Of a DNA stretch of 37,179 nucleotides, positions 1 through 4,079 are shown piece after piece (position 1 is the stretch's first letter; each line of letters opens with the position of its first letter). The notes below the pieces were generated by a model, which was not told the origin of the DNA, did no database searches, and saw only the letters and a list, made by a program, of their open reading frames with translations. The position numbers were made by a program, and so were the translations under genes. This DNA is from Alicyclobacillus sacchari (GTDB lineage Bacteria; Bacillota; Bacilli; Alicyclobacillales; Alicyclobacillaceae), in contig NZ_SORF01000017.1 in NCBI RefSeq assembly GCF_004366795.1, positions 1 to 37,179 on the forward strand, given 5' to 3'.

Positions 1-28
1 CCTGCGTCAACAAATCTTGTACGCTCAT
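1..28 (-). CDS. Start of a transposase-like ORF running off the left edge
   Basis: The minus-strand ATG at 28 follows an AAAGGTGG Shine-Dalgarno at good spacing and reads MSVQDLLTQ before the window ends. Its position just inside the IS21-like terminal repeats suggests it is the first gene (istA) of the element. Only nine residues are visible, so the product cannot be confirmed from sequence. Confidence 0.3.
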
Positions 29-104
29 TAGTGATCCACCTTTCAGCATGGATACTCTCCCTTCTGAACCCGGCTAGGTCTGAAGAGAGATATTCAACTG
101 AGGT

Positions 105-149
105 GGGTCATTTTCATTCCGGCGAACCTGGGTCAATTATAGTCCGGCG
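105..149. repeat. Two terminal direct repeats of the IS end
   Basis: GGGTCATTTTCATTCCGGCG at 105-124 and GGGTCAATTATAGTCCGGCG at 130-149 share the first six bases and the final TCCGGCG, and start 25 bp apart. Repeats of this form are presumed transposase-binding sites in IS21-like ends. Confidence 0.65.
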
Positions 150-155
150 TTAACA

Positions 156-1159
156 ACCGCGGCTATTTCGCAGGAGAATTAGCAGAATCACAAACGTTTG
201 AGGAGGTAGCCTATCTGCTCTGGCACGGCGCTCTTCCATCACACCAGCAACTCGAGAAGACCAGATTGCATTTGATTTCGTGCCGTGTTCTGCCAGAATC
301 CGTGCGACGTGTCCTCGAGAAGCTCGATCCCGACCAGGATATGATGAGCGTGCTCCGGACCGCCGTCTCAGCCTGCAGGCCGAGTCAGGAATGGCCGCCG
401 ACGGTGGAAGATGCCATGATGTTCACTGCAATGTTGCCCACTGTTATCGCATACCGATGGGCACTACAGTCTGGGCGTGCGCCCATCGAACCGGATCCCG
501 AGTTGTCGCATGTGGCCAACTATCTCTACATGCTAACCGGGAAGCGGCCTGATCCAGCGATTGCCCGTGCTCTCGAAGCGTACATGGTGATCACCATGGA
601 GCACGGTTTAAATGCTTCAACCTTTGCAGCGCGCGTCGTTACCTCTACTCGATCTGACATGGCGTCGGCATTGTGCGCTGCACTAGGTGCAATGAAGGGT
701 CCCCTGCACGGCGGGGCGCCTTTGGAAGTCAGGGTTATGTTGGAGCAGATCGGGGCCACCGAGCATGCAGAACCGTGGCTTCGGCGGGAGCTTGAGGCGG
801 GTCGGAGATTGATGGGATTCGGGCATCGTGTCTACAAGACACGAGATCCGCGTGCGGTCGCCTTGCGATCGGTGGTGGAGTCTCTTCAATTCGGAGATCC
901 CTCGTTTGACCTCGCCGTCCAAGTAGAGGACCTAGCGATCCGTCTACTCGAAGAATATAAGCCAGGCCGCCACCTCTACACGAACGTGGAGTACTGGGCC
1001 GCCGCGATCCTAGGGGCGGTAGGCATACCTAATACATTGTTCACCGCATCGTTTTCGGCGAGCCGGTGCGTAGGGTGGACGGCGCACATCCTGGAACAGG
1101 CGGAGAACAATCGCTTGATCCGACCTCAATCTGAGTATATCGGCCCGATGCCCTGCTAA
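156..1159 (+). pseudogene. citA: CitA-like citrate synthase, 5' end removed by an IS
   Basis: Citrate synthase condenses acetyl-CoA with oxaloacetate. The open frame runs from 143 without a proper start. Recognisable protein begins at R-G-Y-F-A-G-E (158 onward), which aligns to about residue 30 of a roughly 370-residue family member, so the N-terminal start and first strands are gone. Retained motifs are GPLHGGAP, MGFGHRVYKTRDPRA with the catalytic His, NVEYWAAAIL, and FSASRCVGWTAHILEQAENN near the C-terminus. The catalytic acid usually read as Asp in NVDF is Glu here (NVEY). B. subtilis CitA also has NVEF by recollection, so this supports a CitA-type enzyme. A TTG at 266 could start a 297-residue remnant, but that would lack still more of the fold. 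The body shows no internal stop, so the insertion looks recent. Confidence 0.85.
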
Positions 1160-1228: not shown

Positions 1229-1255
1229 AGCGCCGCGGGTCACACCCGCGGCGCT
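1229..1255 (-). terminator. Strong rho-independent terminator
   Basis: A 12-bp perfect stem (AGCGCCGCGGGT / ACCCGCGGCGCT) with a 3-nt loop is followed on the minus strand by TTTTC. It begins 14 nt after the stop codon of the 44-codon ORF at 1270-1404. It has no U-tract on the plus strand, so it best fits termination of the riboswitch-controlled minus-strand transcript. It may also slow transcription coming from the citrate synthase remnant. Confidence 0.8.
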
Positions 1256-1269
1256 ATGCGTATCACACG

Positions 1270-1404
1270 TCAACGTAGGGTTTGCTTTTCAGCTTGCCCA
1301 GTCCGGCCGATACGGACTCTATCCTCCTTGCGTCCCAAATGTTTCAACGCAAGCTGAATCTCCATATCCCGGACATACTGTGGCAATTCTGGCTTCACGA
1401 CCAT
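1270..1404 (-). CDS. 44-residue ORF downstream of a c-di-AMP riboswitch
   Basis: The ATG at 1404 has an AAGGAG Shine-Dalgarno (minus strand of 1414-1419) nine nucleotides upstream. The product is highly charged, starts MVVKPELPQYV and contains the amphipathic stretch DMEIQLALKHLGRKED. No signal peptide or membrane segment is seen, and no family is recognised. It lies 64 nt beyond the riboswitch aptamer and 14 nt before a strong terminator, so it is the only coding content of that transcript. Upstream, the same frame continues as S-V-K-E-L-V-E to a TGA at about 1436. A one-base shift there would add a short leader (L-A-E-D-Q-I), so this could instead be the intact tail of a frameshifted or deleted gene. 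That it is coding is inferred from the Shine-Dalgarno and its placement. Confidence 0.45.
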   Translation of the reverse strand: MVVKPELPQYVRDMEIQLALKHLGRKEDRVRIGRTGQAEKQTLR

Positions 1405-1468
1405 CTCGACCAGCTCCTTGACTGAATTTGATCCTCAGCCAAGTTCCTTTTGGATCACGCTTGATCTT

Positions 1469-1590
1469 CCTACAACGCTTACGGAGTTAGCTGACGGGTT
1501 CGGGTGTAGGAAACCCTACGAGGCCTTCGGCCCCGATTCACCCCACATACATGGGTCCTCCGCTTCCCAAAAACGGAACTCAGCGATAGG
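1469..1590 (-). promoter_or_regulatory. c-di-AMP riboswitch (ydaO/yuaA leader)
   Basis: Read on the minus strand, the conserved blocks of the ydaO motif appear in order: GGAAGCGGAGGACCCA, then TGGGGTGAATC, then CGTAGGG, then CCCGAACCCGTCAGCTAAC followed by TCCGTAAGCG. The ends pair as P1: CCTA and CGCT at the 5' side (near 1590) with AGCG and TAGG at the 3' side (near 1470). The class binds cyclic di-AMP and usually turns off genes for cell-wall hydrolases or for potassium and osmolyte transport. Here the downstream content is only the 44-codon ORF. Possible expression-platform pairings after the aptamer are GATCA/TGATC and GATCC/GGATC, but I could not decide between termination and translational control. 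Confidence 0.93.
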
Positions 1591-1600
1591 TCATGAAACT

Positions 1601-1629
1601 ATTGTACGCCACATCACCGAATTTGGCAA
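1601..1629 (-). promoter_or_regulatory. Sigma-A-like promoter of the riboswitch transcript
   Basis: On the minus strand, TTGCCA (plus positions 1624-1629) and TACAAT (1601-1606) are separated by exactly 17 bp. Each hexamer matches the consensus at five of six positions. Transcription would start near 1594, just outside the riboswitch P1 stem. The -35 box directly follows the stop codon of the lipoprotein gene (1630-1632), so the riboswitch has its own promoter. Confidence 0.7.
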
Positions 1630-2415
1630 CTATTCAACCCCATGTTCCAATTGACCAACCAGTGAAGAAGGAATTTGGACCTGCGCCAATTGCGGGTTGT
1701 CGATATCCGAAAATATAGTGGACGTCTGGATCGACAAGGAACCAACAGCATCGACAACATTCACCGACTGTGTTTGAATCTGCCGAATGTACCCGCTCGA
1801 TTCACCCACATAGAAGATATACTCAACTGGGCTGCTATGACTAGCGATGGAGGTGATCGACGATCCTGGCGCTTGCTGGAGAAATCCTGGCAAACCAGCA
1901 ATGCCGTTGGGAACGATCACGCGGTAGACATCACAATACTCATCCACCACATAGGTTCTGTCCATTTGCGCCAGTTGAAGGCGATCCCGGATTGCCGTAC
2001 GGATAATGTCACCATAACCTTGGTAAGCATCTAGATTCGCGACAGGTTCCGTTTTCGACCACACAGTCCCGTCCTGTTGATATGCAACCTGCCCTTGTTG
2101 ATATAGCCCGATATTGAAGTTGTTTTCATGCACCTGAATATTAGCCATGTTGGGCATTTGAAGGGTTCCATACTCCGTGAAACTGGTCTTCAAGTTCGCG
2201 TTCTGTATGGTTACTGTCGTAAGCAGTTTATACTCCTGCGCTTGTTCACTCTTCTGCAGCGCTGCTACAAGCGGTGTCCAAGAGACCGAAGGTTTCACGA
2301 TGGTTGTCGCCGTTCCGGAAGCAATTGACGCCTTTTGAACGCCGGGTGCACAACCGGCCAGAAGGGAGGCACAAAAAACAACAGTACCAGCGAGCGTTGC
2401 CAACCTGCCTTTCAT
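1630..2415 (-). CDS. Secreted lipoprotein of unknown function
   Basis: This 261-residue protein has a classical lipoprotein signal: a positive start MKGR, a hydrophobic stretch, and a lipobox L-L-A-G-C ending at about residue 22. It should be anchored on the outer face of the membrane. The mature part (E-Y-K-L-L-T-T-V-T-I, then G-T-L-Q-M-P, N-F-N-I-G-L-Y and Y-Q-Q-D-G-T-V-W) looks like repeated beta strands, similar in style to LolA/LppX-type or sporulation lipoproteins, but no named family is certain. The start overlaps the stop of the upstream gene by four bases (ATGA), so the two are translationally coupled. It is the last gene of the three-gene envelope operon that starts at 5337. Confidence 0.8.
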   Translation of the reverse strand: MKGRLATLAGTVVFCASLLAGCAPGVQKASIASGTATTIVKPSVSWTPLVAALQKSEQAQEYKLLTTVTIQNANLKTSFTEYGTLQMPNMANIQVHENNFNIGLYQQGQVAYQQDGTVWSKTEPVANLDAYQGYGDIIRTAIRDRLQLAQMDRTYVVDEYCDVYRVIVPNGIAGLPGFLQQAPGSSITSIASHSSPVEYIFYVGESSGYIRQIQTQSVNVVDAVGSLSIQTSTIFSDIDNPQLAQVQIPSSLVGQLEHGVE

Positions 2416-4079
2416 CGGCGTTCCCCCTCTTTACGACGCGAAGGTCTGTACAACCATCCGCCTATAAATATCAGCGCCAAGGCGACACACGACAACTGTA
2501 AAAGAGGCCAGTGTGAGCGGGCGATAACCAAGTAGTCACCCGTTCCGTAAATATCAAGCGCAAGCGCATTGGGAGCTGATGCCGACAAGCGAAGCGGCGT
2601 CACATTGACGACGTTCGTGCGGAACACACGCCAGTCGCGAACAAGCTGCCCGTGCCCATTCGCTCCCGGAATGAAACGGTACGCTGAAAAGTAACGAATT
2701 GGCGAGTTGCGTATCATCGACGGGTCGTTTGTGACAATCTCCGGAGCTCCTTGTCCATCTGACAACACCGTTTCAAATCGGAATGTCGGGCTGGTCGCGG
2801 TGTATACGCGTTGCCACTGTCCATTTGCTCCCACCGTTAAGATGTACGCCGGGGAGGCGTTCACAAAAACCGCATCCCGACCGCCCTTGGTAATCGGACC
2901 AATTTCAATGTCGTTCGGCACGGGACTGTCTACGGTGCCTCGATACGTCGCAACAACGCTCCCCGTTTGCAAGTCGACGATATGCAGAGCGTTGTTGCCA
3001 ACCAGCAAGACTTGATCGGAGCGACTGCTGGTAAAATGACCAATCCCCACGACACTACTAGCCTTGACTGGGATTGAAATGGCATGTCCAGCATCGGTGC
3101 CTAACAATTGATCATTCTGCACATACACACCCGAGCGATGCGGCGCAACGCCCAATTGAGCGAGGCAGTCGTCCCAATTTGTCGTTTCCGCGGCAGCCGC
3201 TTGATTCGCAATGGCCTGGAATGAAGCGGGATAAGCCGCCGGGTCAAGCGCTGCCTGCACGGCTTCGGAATCCGTCAAATATGGGGTCAAATACTCGTAA
3301 ATGCGTCCATTACTGACATACCAGTTCGCCTTTTCGTATGGAAAGAAGGCGCGAACAAGATCCATCGGATTGACCTCCGCCAATTCGGCAGGCGTCGGAT
3401 TGACCTTTTTAAGCTTTCCGTTTACGTCCTTAAGCTCGATGATTTGATACTCACCGTCCGCCGTCTGCAAAACGTTGAAGAGAGCATCGGGTGAATCGGT
3501 CGCCGACAGAGCCATCTGCTCGAGTTCGGTCGACGATGGCACGTAGCCATCGATGGTGATGATTGCATCACTCCCATTTGTCGGAACGATAGCCATGGGA
3601 GCTTCCGGCGAATTTTGAGCCTGCAAATTGACGTGCGAATCATCGAGCACCCGGAAATGCGGTAAAAACGCCCAGTCGTTGAGCGGCAACCACAATTGAG
3701 ACAGAATCACCGCGATCCCGCCCAGCAACGACGCCCAAGGTCGTGTTCGACCGAACCAAATGGCCATGATCCACAAGCCAAGGACCATGACAACGGTGAC
3801 TGCGATCAACTTTGCTGTACTGCCAAATGAAAGTGTTGCAAACCCCTGTGCCAGCATTAGGACAAAGAGCGTGTACGATACCCACGACCGACGTAACGTC
3901 CTATCAATGGTTGTGAGCCACACGACACCGATGGCGGCGACCAGAAGTACACCGTACAGGGCAAGGTCATCCACTAACGGCCGTAACACCCATACATAGA
4001 TAGCATTCACAAACAGTGCCCAGAAGACAAACCAAATCCAACGGACGATAATCCCAGGAAGCGACTTCGATTTATTCAT
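2412..4079 (-). CDS. Membrane protein with a large extracytoplasmic propeller-like domain
   Basis: This 555-residue protein starts with about five hydrophobic helices (residues 10-130), such as I-V-R-W-I-W-F-V-F-W-A-L-F and L-L-V-A-A-I-G-V-V-W-L. A long soluble region (about 140-510) follows, then one C-terminal helix near 520-540 (L-L-Q-L-S-C-V-A-L-A-L-I-F-I-G-G-W) and a basic tail. The soluble part has repeated units such as D-Q-V-L-L-V-G-N-N-A-L-H-I-V-D-L and R-D-A-V-F-V-N-A-S, resembling FG-GAP/VCBS-like beta-propeller blades. The start has a strong AGGAGGAG Shine-Dalgarno. It overlaps the end of the O-antigen-ligase-like gene by eight bases and the lipoprotein start by four. A role in making or exporting a surface polymer is inferred only from these neighbours. 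Confidence 0.75.
   Translation of the reverse strand: MNKSKSLPGIIVRWIWFVFWALFVNAIYVWVLRPLVDDLALYGVLLVAAIGVVWLTTIDRTLRRSWVSYTLFVLMLAQGFATLSFGSTAKLIAVTVVMVLGLWIMAIWFGRTRPWASLLGGIAVILSQLWLPLNDWAFLPHFRVLDDSHVNLQAQNSPEAPMAIVPTNGSDAIITIDGYVPSSTELEQMALSATDSPDALFNVLQTADGEYQIIELKDVNGKLKKVNPTPAELAEVNPMDLVRAFFPYEKANWYVSNGRIYEYLTPYLTDSEAVQAALDPAAYPASFQAIANQAAAAETTNWDDCLAQLGVAPHRSGVYVQNDQLLGTDAGHAISIPVKASSVVGIGHFTSSRSDQVLLVGNNALHIVDLQTGSVVATYRGTVDSPVPNDIEIGPITKGGRDAVFVNASPAYILTVGANGQWQRVYTATSPTFRFETVLSDGQGAPEIVTNDPSMIRNSPIRYFSAYRFIPGANGHGQLVRDWRVFRTNVVNVTPLRLSASAPNALALDIYGTGDYLVIARSHWPLLQLSCVALALIFIGGWLYRPSRRKEGERR

Follow-up and report, generated by a model that had tools for sequence, protein, structure and literature searches.

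A c-di-AMP riboswitch and its 44-residue protein as a likely self-contained regulatory gene in Alicyclobacillus sacchari and its family

In Alicyclobacillus sacchari, a complete c-di-AMP riboswitch precedes a gene for a protein of only 44 amino acids, and most relatives in the family carry the same small gene. The stretch of DNA analysed here (contig NZ_SORF01000017.1, 37,179 nucleotides, hereafter the window) holds on its minus strand, at positions 1229–1629, a single compact unit made up of promoter, aptamer, ORF and terminator. This is quite likely a self-contained regulatory gene, in which promoter, c-di-AMP aptamer, translational switch, 44-aa product and terminator belong together and whose product would be a docking regulator of the low-c-di-AMP state. 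The response to the ligand, the direction of switching, the existence and kind of a partner and the physiological role are the parts of this proposal that we infer.

Architecture of the unit

The aptamer occupies positions 1461–1595 of the minus strand, and the window contains no further Rfam match. A covariance search aligned it with the c-di-AMP (ydaO/yuaA) family RF00379 over the complete model (positions 1–134) at 97.6 bits (E 4e-22), against a gathering score of 38, with no non-standard pair marked. The genome as a whole (2.95 Mb, 66 contigs) contains five RF00379 matches. A linker of 56 bases leads from the aptamer to the ORF (1270–1404, minus), whose ATG at 1404 is separated by nine bases from the Shine-Dalgarno sequence AAGGAG (1419–1414). 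Upstream of the aptamer lies a sigma-A-type promoter, TTGCCA-17-TACAAT (1601–1629, minus; 10/12 matches), and the unit is closed by an intrinsic terminator (1229–1255, minus) with a stem of 12 pairs, ten of them G-C, followed by TTTCATGTAG. A sequence-only reading of the same DNA had proposed these four elements, including the 17-bp promoter spacer, the complete ydaO-type aptamer, the Shine-Dalgarno sequence of the 44-codon ORF and the 12-bp terminator stem, and all of them stand.

Within the window, the counts of promoters and terminators do not exceed chance: the promoter scan of 1100–2500 found one such site against a shuffle mean of 1.5, and the terminator scan two terminator-like sites against 1.3 expected from shuffles, so that it is the relatives that carry the case. 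Upstream of the aptamer, a promoter-like site matching at 8 or more of the 12 positions is present in all 34 homologous leaders, compared with 22 % of shuffled stretches; at least 10/12 matches are reached in 15 leaders, compared with 0.8 %. Four of the six bases of the -10 box are invariant in an alignment of 32 leaders (alignment A3). Likewise, a terminator-like hairpin follows 25/34 of the homologous ORFs but only 7 % of shuffled stretches. Controlled by shuffling in this way, the riboswitch has the position of a 5' leader behind a predicted promoter. Many of the 32 aligned leaders also carry a palindrome, TTACGTAA, immediately downstream of the -10 box, close to where transcription probably begins, which could serve as an operator or as an element of the mRNA 5' end.

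The sequence-only reading had also considered the peptide with a frame-corrected leader. A frame reading VKELV or VKELI is common to 13 of the 15 members of the genus, where it overlaps the Shine-Dalgarno hairpin described below. It is not kept in G001, G005 or other genera, and a coding upstream extension was rejected.

The association between ORF and riboswitch is tight. An RF00379 match is found directly upstream in 32 of the 34 homologues, and the two exceptions, G023 and G034, both belong to genus g10 and have no RF00379 match within 12 kb around the ORF. Their leaders still carry the TATAAT box, the start of the aptamer 5' strand, the linker core and the hairpin, and because of these remnants we read them, from their sequences, as cases of aptamer loss. 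The third genome of the genus, G063, yields no protein of this type in profile searches, so that two of three g10 genomes have the ORF with promoter and hairpin but without aptamer. With the aptamer gone and hairpin and ORF kept, they offer a natural control for the switch.

Expression platform and direction of switching

A scan of the window found no terminator-like site between aptamer and ORF on the minus strand, hence no platform of the terminator type. The linker contains instead a hairpin of 10 bp with a 7-nt loop (1417–1443, minus; z -1.84) that covers the first three bases of AAGGAG. When the segment from GGAAC to the start codon is folded, the minimum-energy structure has a hairpin right after GGAA, over the Shine-Dalgarno region, in 33/34 leaders (not in G029). 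Its stem is formed by CUUGGCUGA with UCAGUCAAG in Alicyclobacillus, and in other genera by CCCGCGAUU with AAUCGAGGG or by CCCGGCG with CGUCGGG. The z-score of the hairpin is at or below -2 in 25 leaders, including that of G029, and above -2 in nine, including that of the window.

The 5' strand of the aptamer is able to pair with the linker. In the window, a strand at 1567–1584 (minus) can form a duplex of -21.0 kcal/mol with 1438–1453 (minus), which overlaps the 5' arm of the hairpin, so that the two would act as anti-sequestor strands; the pairing involves GCUGAGUUCC with GGAACUUGGC, plus UUUUGG with CCAAAA. Across the 34 leaders the energy of this alternative helix ranges from -18.2 to -30.7 kcal/mol (mean -24.6). 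In 29/34 leaders the native energy is attained by no more than three of 200 dinucleotide shuffles, the exceptions being the window's own leader (G000; 8 of 200), G006 (6), G017 (14), G023 (47) and G029 (10). Permuting the linkers over 17 lineages, which were grouped by leader sequence (g1 split into six, g12 into two) and not corrected for relatedness, gave no case in 5000 that attained the native mean energy, in each of ten draws; with genus g12 left out, 0–6 of 5000 did. This genus contains a compensatory change, with GAAUUCC in the aptamer and GGAAU in the linker. It is chiefly the loop side of the helix that contributes the covariation signal. For the arm side, where there is overlap with the hairpin, 7–16 of 5000 permutations reach the native value with all lineages and 372–746 without g12, and permutation inside Alicyclobacillus gave no covariation signal.

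Hairpin and alternative helix share bases in 33/34 leaders and are thus mutually exclusive. The leaders therefore combine the two features of a translational platform, a hairpin over the Shine-Dalgarno sequence and an exclusive pairing with the aptamer, with covariation that is weak on the arm side. Since the window lacks a terminator-like site before the ORF but has the Shine-Dalgarno hairpin, control is probably exerted by translational repression, and on the modelled structures c-di-AMP would be the repressing signal, with the protein made when c-di-AMP is low. At low c-di-AMP, the aptamer 5' strand (GCUGAGUUCC) would pair with the linker (GGAACUUGGC); the linker segment held in this way includes the 5' arm of the hairpin, which would leave the ribosome site free and allow synthesis of the protein. 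With c-di-AMP bound, the aptamer would retain its 5' strand, and the linker arm would fold onto the Shine-Dalgarno sequence and stop translation. The kdp riboswitch of B. thuringiensis differs in that it works through an intrinsic terminator, according to an excerpt of PMC6488665. According to an excerpt of a review (PMC10907184), ydaO is one of the classes in which the aptamer, once its ligand is bound, can mask the ribosome site, so that translational control is in itself no novelty.

Modelled at equilibrium, folding is not decisive on the direction of switching. The predicted accessibility of the Shine-Dalgarno sequence is higher in the unbound state in 24/34 leaders, by more than 0.2 in only 12 of them; in the leader of the window it rises from 0.42 to 0.67. 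When whole leaders are folded without constraint, the alternative helix exceeds a probability of 0.5 in 15/34 and the hairpin in 24/34, and in the ligand-free leader of the window the hairpin (0.96) beats the alternative helix (0.07). This preference for the hairpin without ligand is what a riboswitch of the opposite sense would show, in which binding of c-di-AMP frees the Shine-Dalgarno sequence. Such an ON switch is unlikely: in 33/34 leaders the stretch that the aptamer 5' strand can capture overlaps the sequestering arm of the Shine-Dalgarno hairpin, and this capture consumes bases of the aptamer itself. Moreover, c-di-AMP riboswitches as described in excerpts of two reports shut expression upon ligand binding (rpfA, PMC10117811; tandem Na+/c-di-AMP systems, PMC9481103).

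The small protein and its chromosomal neighbourhood

Homologues of the 44-aa protein, hereafter type A, were sought in the family to which A. sacchari belongs (f1, 41 genomes; its named relatives are placed in the NCBI family Alicyclobacillaceae). Used as a query against 61 genomes, the protein matched in 15/15 genomes of the genus (E 2e-24 to 0.003), and the relatives with the ORF include Alicyclobacillus hesperidum, A. tengchongensis, A. fastidiosus and A. suci. A profile of 22 members (A1), searched in 59 genomes of the order, matched at E<=2e-5 in 33/41 genomes of the family and in 0/18 of the other family of the order. G021, a weak match (E 0.28), was also counted as it has the aptamer upstream and the same leader and motif, bringing the homologues to 34 (33 by profile, one by motif and position). 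All are 43–54 aa long, none is the start of a longer gene, and all possess a Shine-Dalgarno sequence and begin five codons before the E of ELP or one codon later. The shared motif, PELPxxxRD(L/M)EIxx(S/A)LxR, in the window PELPxxxRDMEIxxALK, lies near the N terminus; M1, E6, L7, D13, E15, I16 and L20 are invariant in the 22 aligned members, and P5 and R12 almost invariant. At the C terminus the proteins end in variable, charged tails.

The pattern of nucleotide changes agrees with this conservation. In the first 25 codons, the genomes of the window and of A. hesperidum (G000/G003) differ by eight synonymous and no non-synonymous changes, and G011/G013 by nine and none. Among ten close pairs, pN is lower than pS in nine, and five lack any non-synonymous change; the tails diverge more. 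Counter-cases, given as synonymous/non-synonymous changes, are G033/G064 (0/1), G032/G062 (3/3) and G023/G034 (6/4). For the core of 20 codons, pooled pN/pS amounts to 0.19 within the genus and to 0.37 in the remaining members, values that are rough because synonymous sites are saturated. On these comparisons, the N-terminal half of the ORF (the first 25 codons) is under purifying selection.

Database searches assign the protein to no known family. Five type A members gave no family in Pfam and NCBIfam; all 22 gave one Pfam match, in a single member and not significant (E 0.17), and seven PHROGs families with one member each (best E 0.035), none above the cut-off. The best match among PDB sequences (E 0.21) was not significant either. 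Outside the family, the type A profile produced three matches only in 398 genomes of the class (E 0.057–0.090), and a combined profile of type A and the type B proteins discussed below five matches in 398 genomes of the phylum (E 0.004–0.02; loci L168–L172). These five were treated as chance. L168, L170, L171 and L172 have no RF00379 match in their flanks; L168 lacks the motif, L170 and L171 bear a faint resemblance in the final part of longer frames, the match of L169 sits in a 620-aa frame, and L172 has a stretch that is rather type B-like (PEMPALLRDCIIRKAINRL) at the end of a frame, in a matched region that contains a stop. By the profile searches made here, the type A family is found only in the family of Alicyclobacillus. 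The suggestion of an undescribed c-di-AMP-controlled small protein in the sequence-only reading gains support from these comparisons, as the relatives showed no fusion to a larger gene (0/34) and the ORF is conserved in 34/41 genomes at 43–54 aa under purifying selection.

AlphaFold, run on five sequences, predicts a single helix over residues 9–42, in a model that is of low confidence overall (mean pLDDT 67, pTM 0.32) and fair only around residues 11–20 (mean pLDDT 87). Because an invariant short helix is followed by a variable tail, we favour, on this model, a short helical docking regulator: the conserved N-terminal helix of about 22 residues would bind one partner, with the variable tail behind it. 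Alicyclobacillus is a spore former, and charged, variable C-terminal tails would suit a spore or structural peptide. This we hold to be improbable, for the promoter is sigma-A-like in 34 leaders, and what is conserved, a short helix that includes invariant charged residues, is more like a docking motif.

The surroundings of the unit were compared in 35 places, the 34 homologues plus a locus of G026, with a crude ORF caller; rplS, rbgA and rnhB were named from their sequences, Wzy_C and M23 by Pfam. A 555-aa or lipoprotein-like protein (one cluster) is present in 32 places, a Wzy_C protein in 30, an M23 peptidase in 26, and genes of the rplS, rbgA and rnhB types in 25, 26 and 26, respectively. 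In the window, the upstream neighbour kept in the family is a 261-aa protein (1630–2415, minus), lipoprotein-like by eye and without Pfam match. Together with a 555-aa membrane-like protein, also without Pfam match, it makes up the stretch 1630–4079 (minus), and in most relatives these two adjoin the unit. Where relatives have rplS-rbgA-rnhB, the window has a convergent citrate synthase gene (266–1159, plus; PF00285, E 1.1e-92), and rplS of this genome lies on contig C2 behind a LysR-type gene (LysR by eye), which means that the unit stands without rplS. The citrate synthase beside the unit and the LysR-type gene upstream of rplS suggest that in this genome a citA/citR-like pair separates the small gene from rplS, at a junction that falls beyond the ends of both contigs (window 1–1159 and G000:C2:1–4000).

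An rplS- or rbgA-type gene within about 1.6 kb downstream, as found in 29/34 cases, might indicate a cis-acting leader peptide or attenuator of the rplS-rbgA-rnhB operon that has no protein function of its own. Terminators, synteny and selection led us to reject this very improbable reading: most of the ORFs end in the terminator-like hairpin described above, the genome of the window has citrate synthase in place of rplS, an HlyD-like gene (by eye) intervenes in genera g3 and g7, and it is the amino-acid sequence that is under selection. The scar of a deleted larger gene with surviving control region, which the sequence-only reading had considered for so tiny an ORF standing alone, can practically be dismissed, since all 34 homologues keep length, Shine-Dalgarno sequence and start position under purifying selection and no longer ORF with the same N terminus was found among them.

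The small protein in c-di-AMP signalling

The known regulon of c-di-AMP riboswitches comprises K+ and amino-acid transporters and cell-wall enzymes (PMC10117811, in excerpt), and the other four riboswitches of the genome fit this description. The genes downstream of them encode an MFS transporter (Sugar_tr), an ABC ATPase with CBS domains, which we name as of the osmoprotectant type, an NlpC/P60 hydrolase and a LysM/Hydrolase_2 hydrolase. The fifth has a complete RF00379 aptamer, but its output is one tiny protein, without enzyme or transporter domain. Given that the other four targets are the usual company of c-di-AMP, the small protein is by analogy most likely part of the low-c-di-AMP programme, to which those four would belong as well. 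MntS is a small regulator protein of ion homeostasis, and the protein described here is alike in being a small protein in such a setting. The same holds for KhtS/CpeC, named among small regulators of ion homeostasis in an excerpt of PMC10117811; no sequence relation to any of these is claimed. Among the matches listed from the literature on c-di-AMP/ydaO riboswitches, on small proteins and on Alicyclobacillus, a scope that leaves aside the published lists of ydaO targets, no report of this tiny orphan protein as the output of a c-di-AMP riboswitch was found.

Five genomes encode a second kind of small protein, type B (PELxxLLRDxxIxxRLxxL), downstream of other c-di-AMP riboswitches. In G023, G034 and G030 its gene comes after a gene for a 165–200-aa protein that follows the riboswitch, in G063 it lies at a similar distance behind the riboswitch, and in G026 directly after the aptamer. 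A profile of four B proteins matched at E<=4e-19 in 5/59 genomes, G063 being the one outside the profile. The next matches are type A proteins (G023 at 0.003, G003 at 0.02, G006 at 0.03); from E 0.05 chance matches mix in, and the protein of the window stands at 0.07. Comparison of the A and B profiles gave a probability of 92.5 % (E 4.8e-7) over 25 columns, by which type B is homologous to type A. A match of the type B protein of G030 to GerD (PF17898; E 0.014, 15.8 bits against a cut-off of 29.5) was treated as chance. Profile searches found neither A nor B in four of the 41 family genomes (G015, G019, G022, which is 85 % complete, and G024).

Other small or unassigned ORFs are also found behind these riboswitches. 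In G008 (L173, 1505–2670), a 62-aa ORF (1644–1832) begins right behind an aptamer (1505–1636), and a 35-aa hydrophobic ORF, a second aptamer (2005–2134) and a 149-aa universal-stress-like gene come next; the 62-aa protein has no Pfam match. G007 (L044) has the same small ORF with two aptamers, and G001 (L062) a related ORF. The protein of about 165–200 aa, with EF.LA.VVQ[DN]SL by eye, occurs behind strong c-di-AMP riboswitches in six genomes (L049, L040, L039, L036, L038 and L055), and the two members scanned have no Pfam match above the cut-off.

We regard as evenly balanced the wider proposal that A and B together (PEL...RD.EI...L) represent a dedicated protein output of c-di-AMP riboswitches, which would relay the signal through a 22-residue helix to a conserved partner and not via transporters or wall enzymes. 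The link would have arisen, or been kept, at two loci, and g10 would have lost the aptamer of the first and kept that of the second.

According to an excerpt of PMC7266159, the targets of c-di-AMP riboswitches have offered hints as to which functions c-di-AMP controls. Here the target kept in 34/41 genomes of the family is an orphan protein small enough to be synthesised, which makes deletion, pull-down and reporter tests direct. As far as sequence comparison goes, a conserved tiny protein behind a c-di-AMP switch points to an undescribed branch of c-di-AMP signalling.
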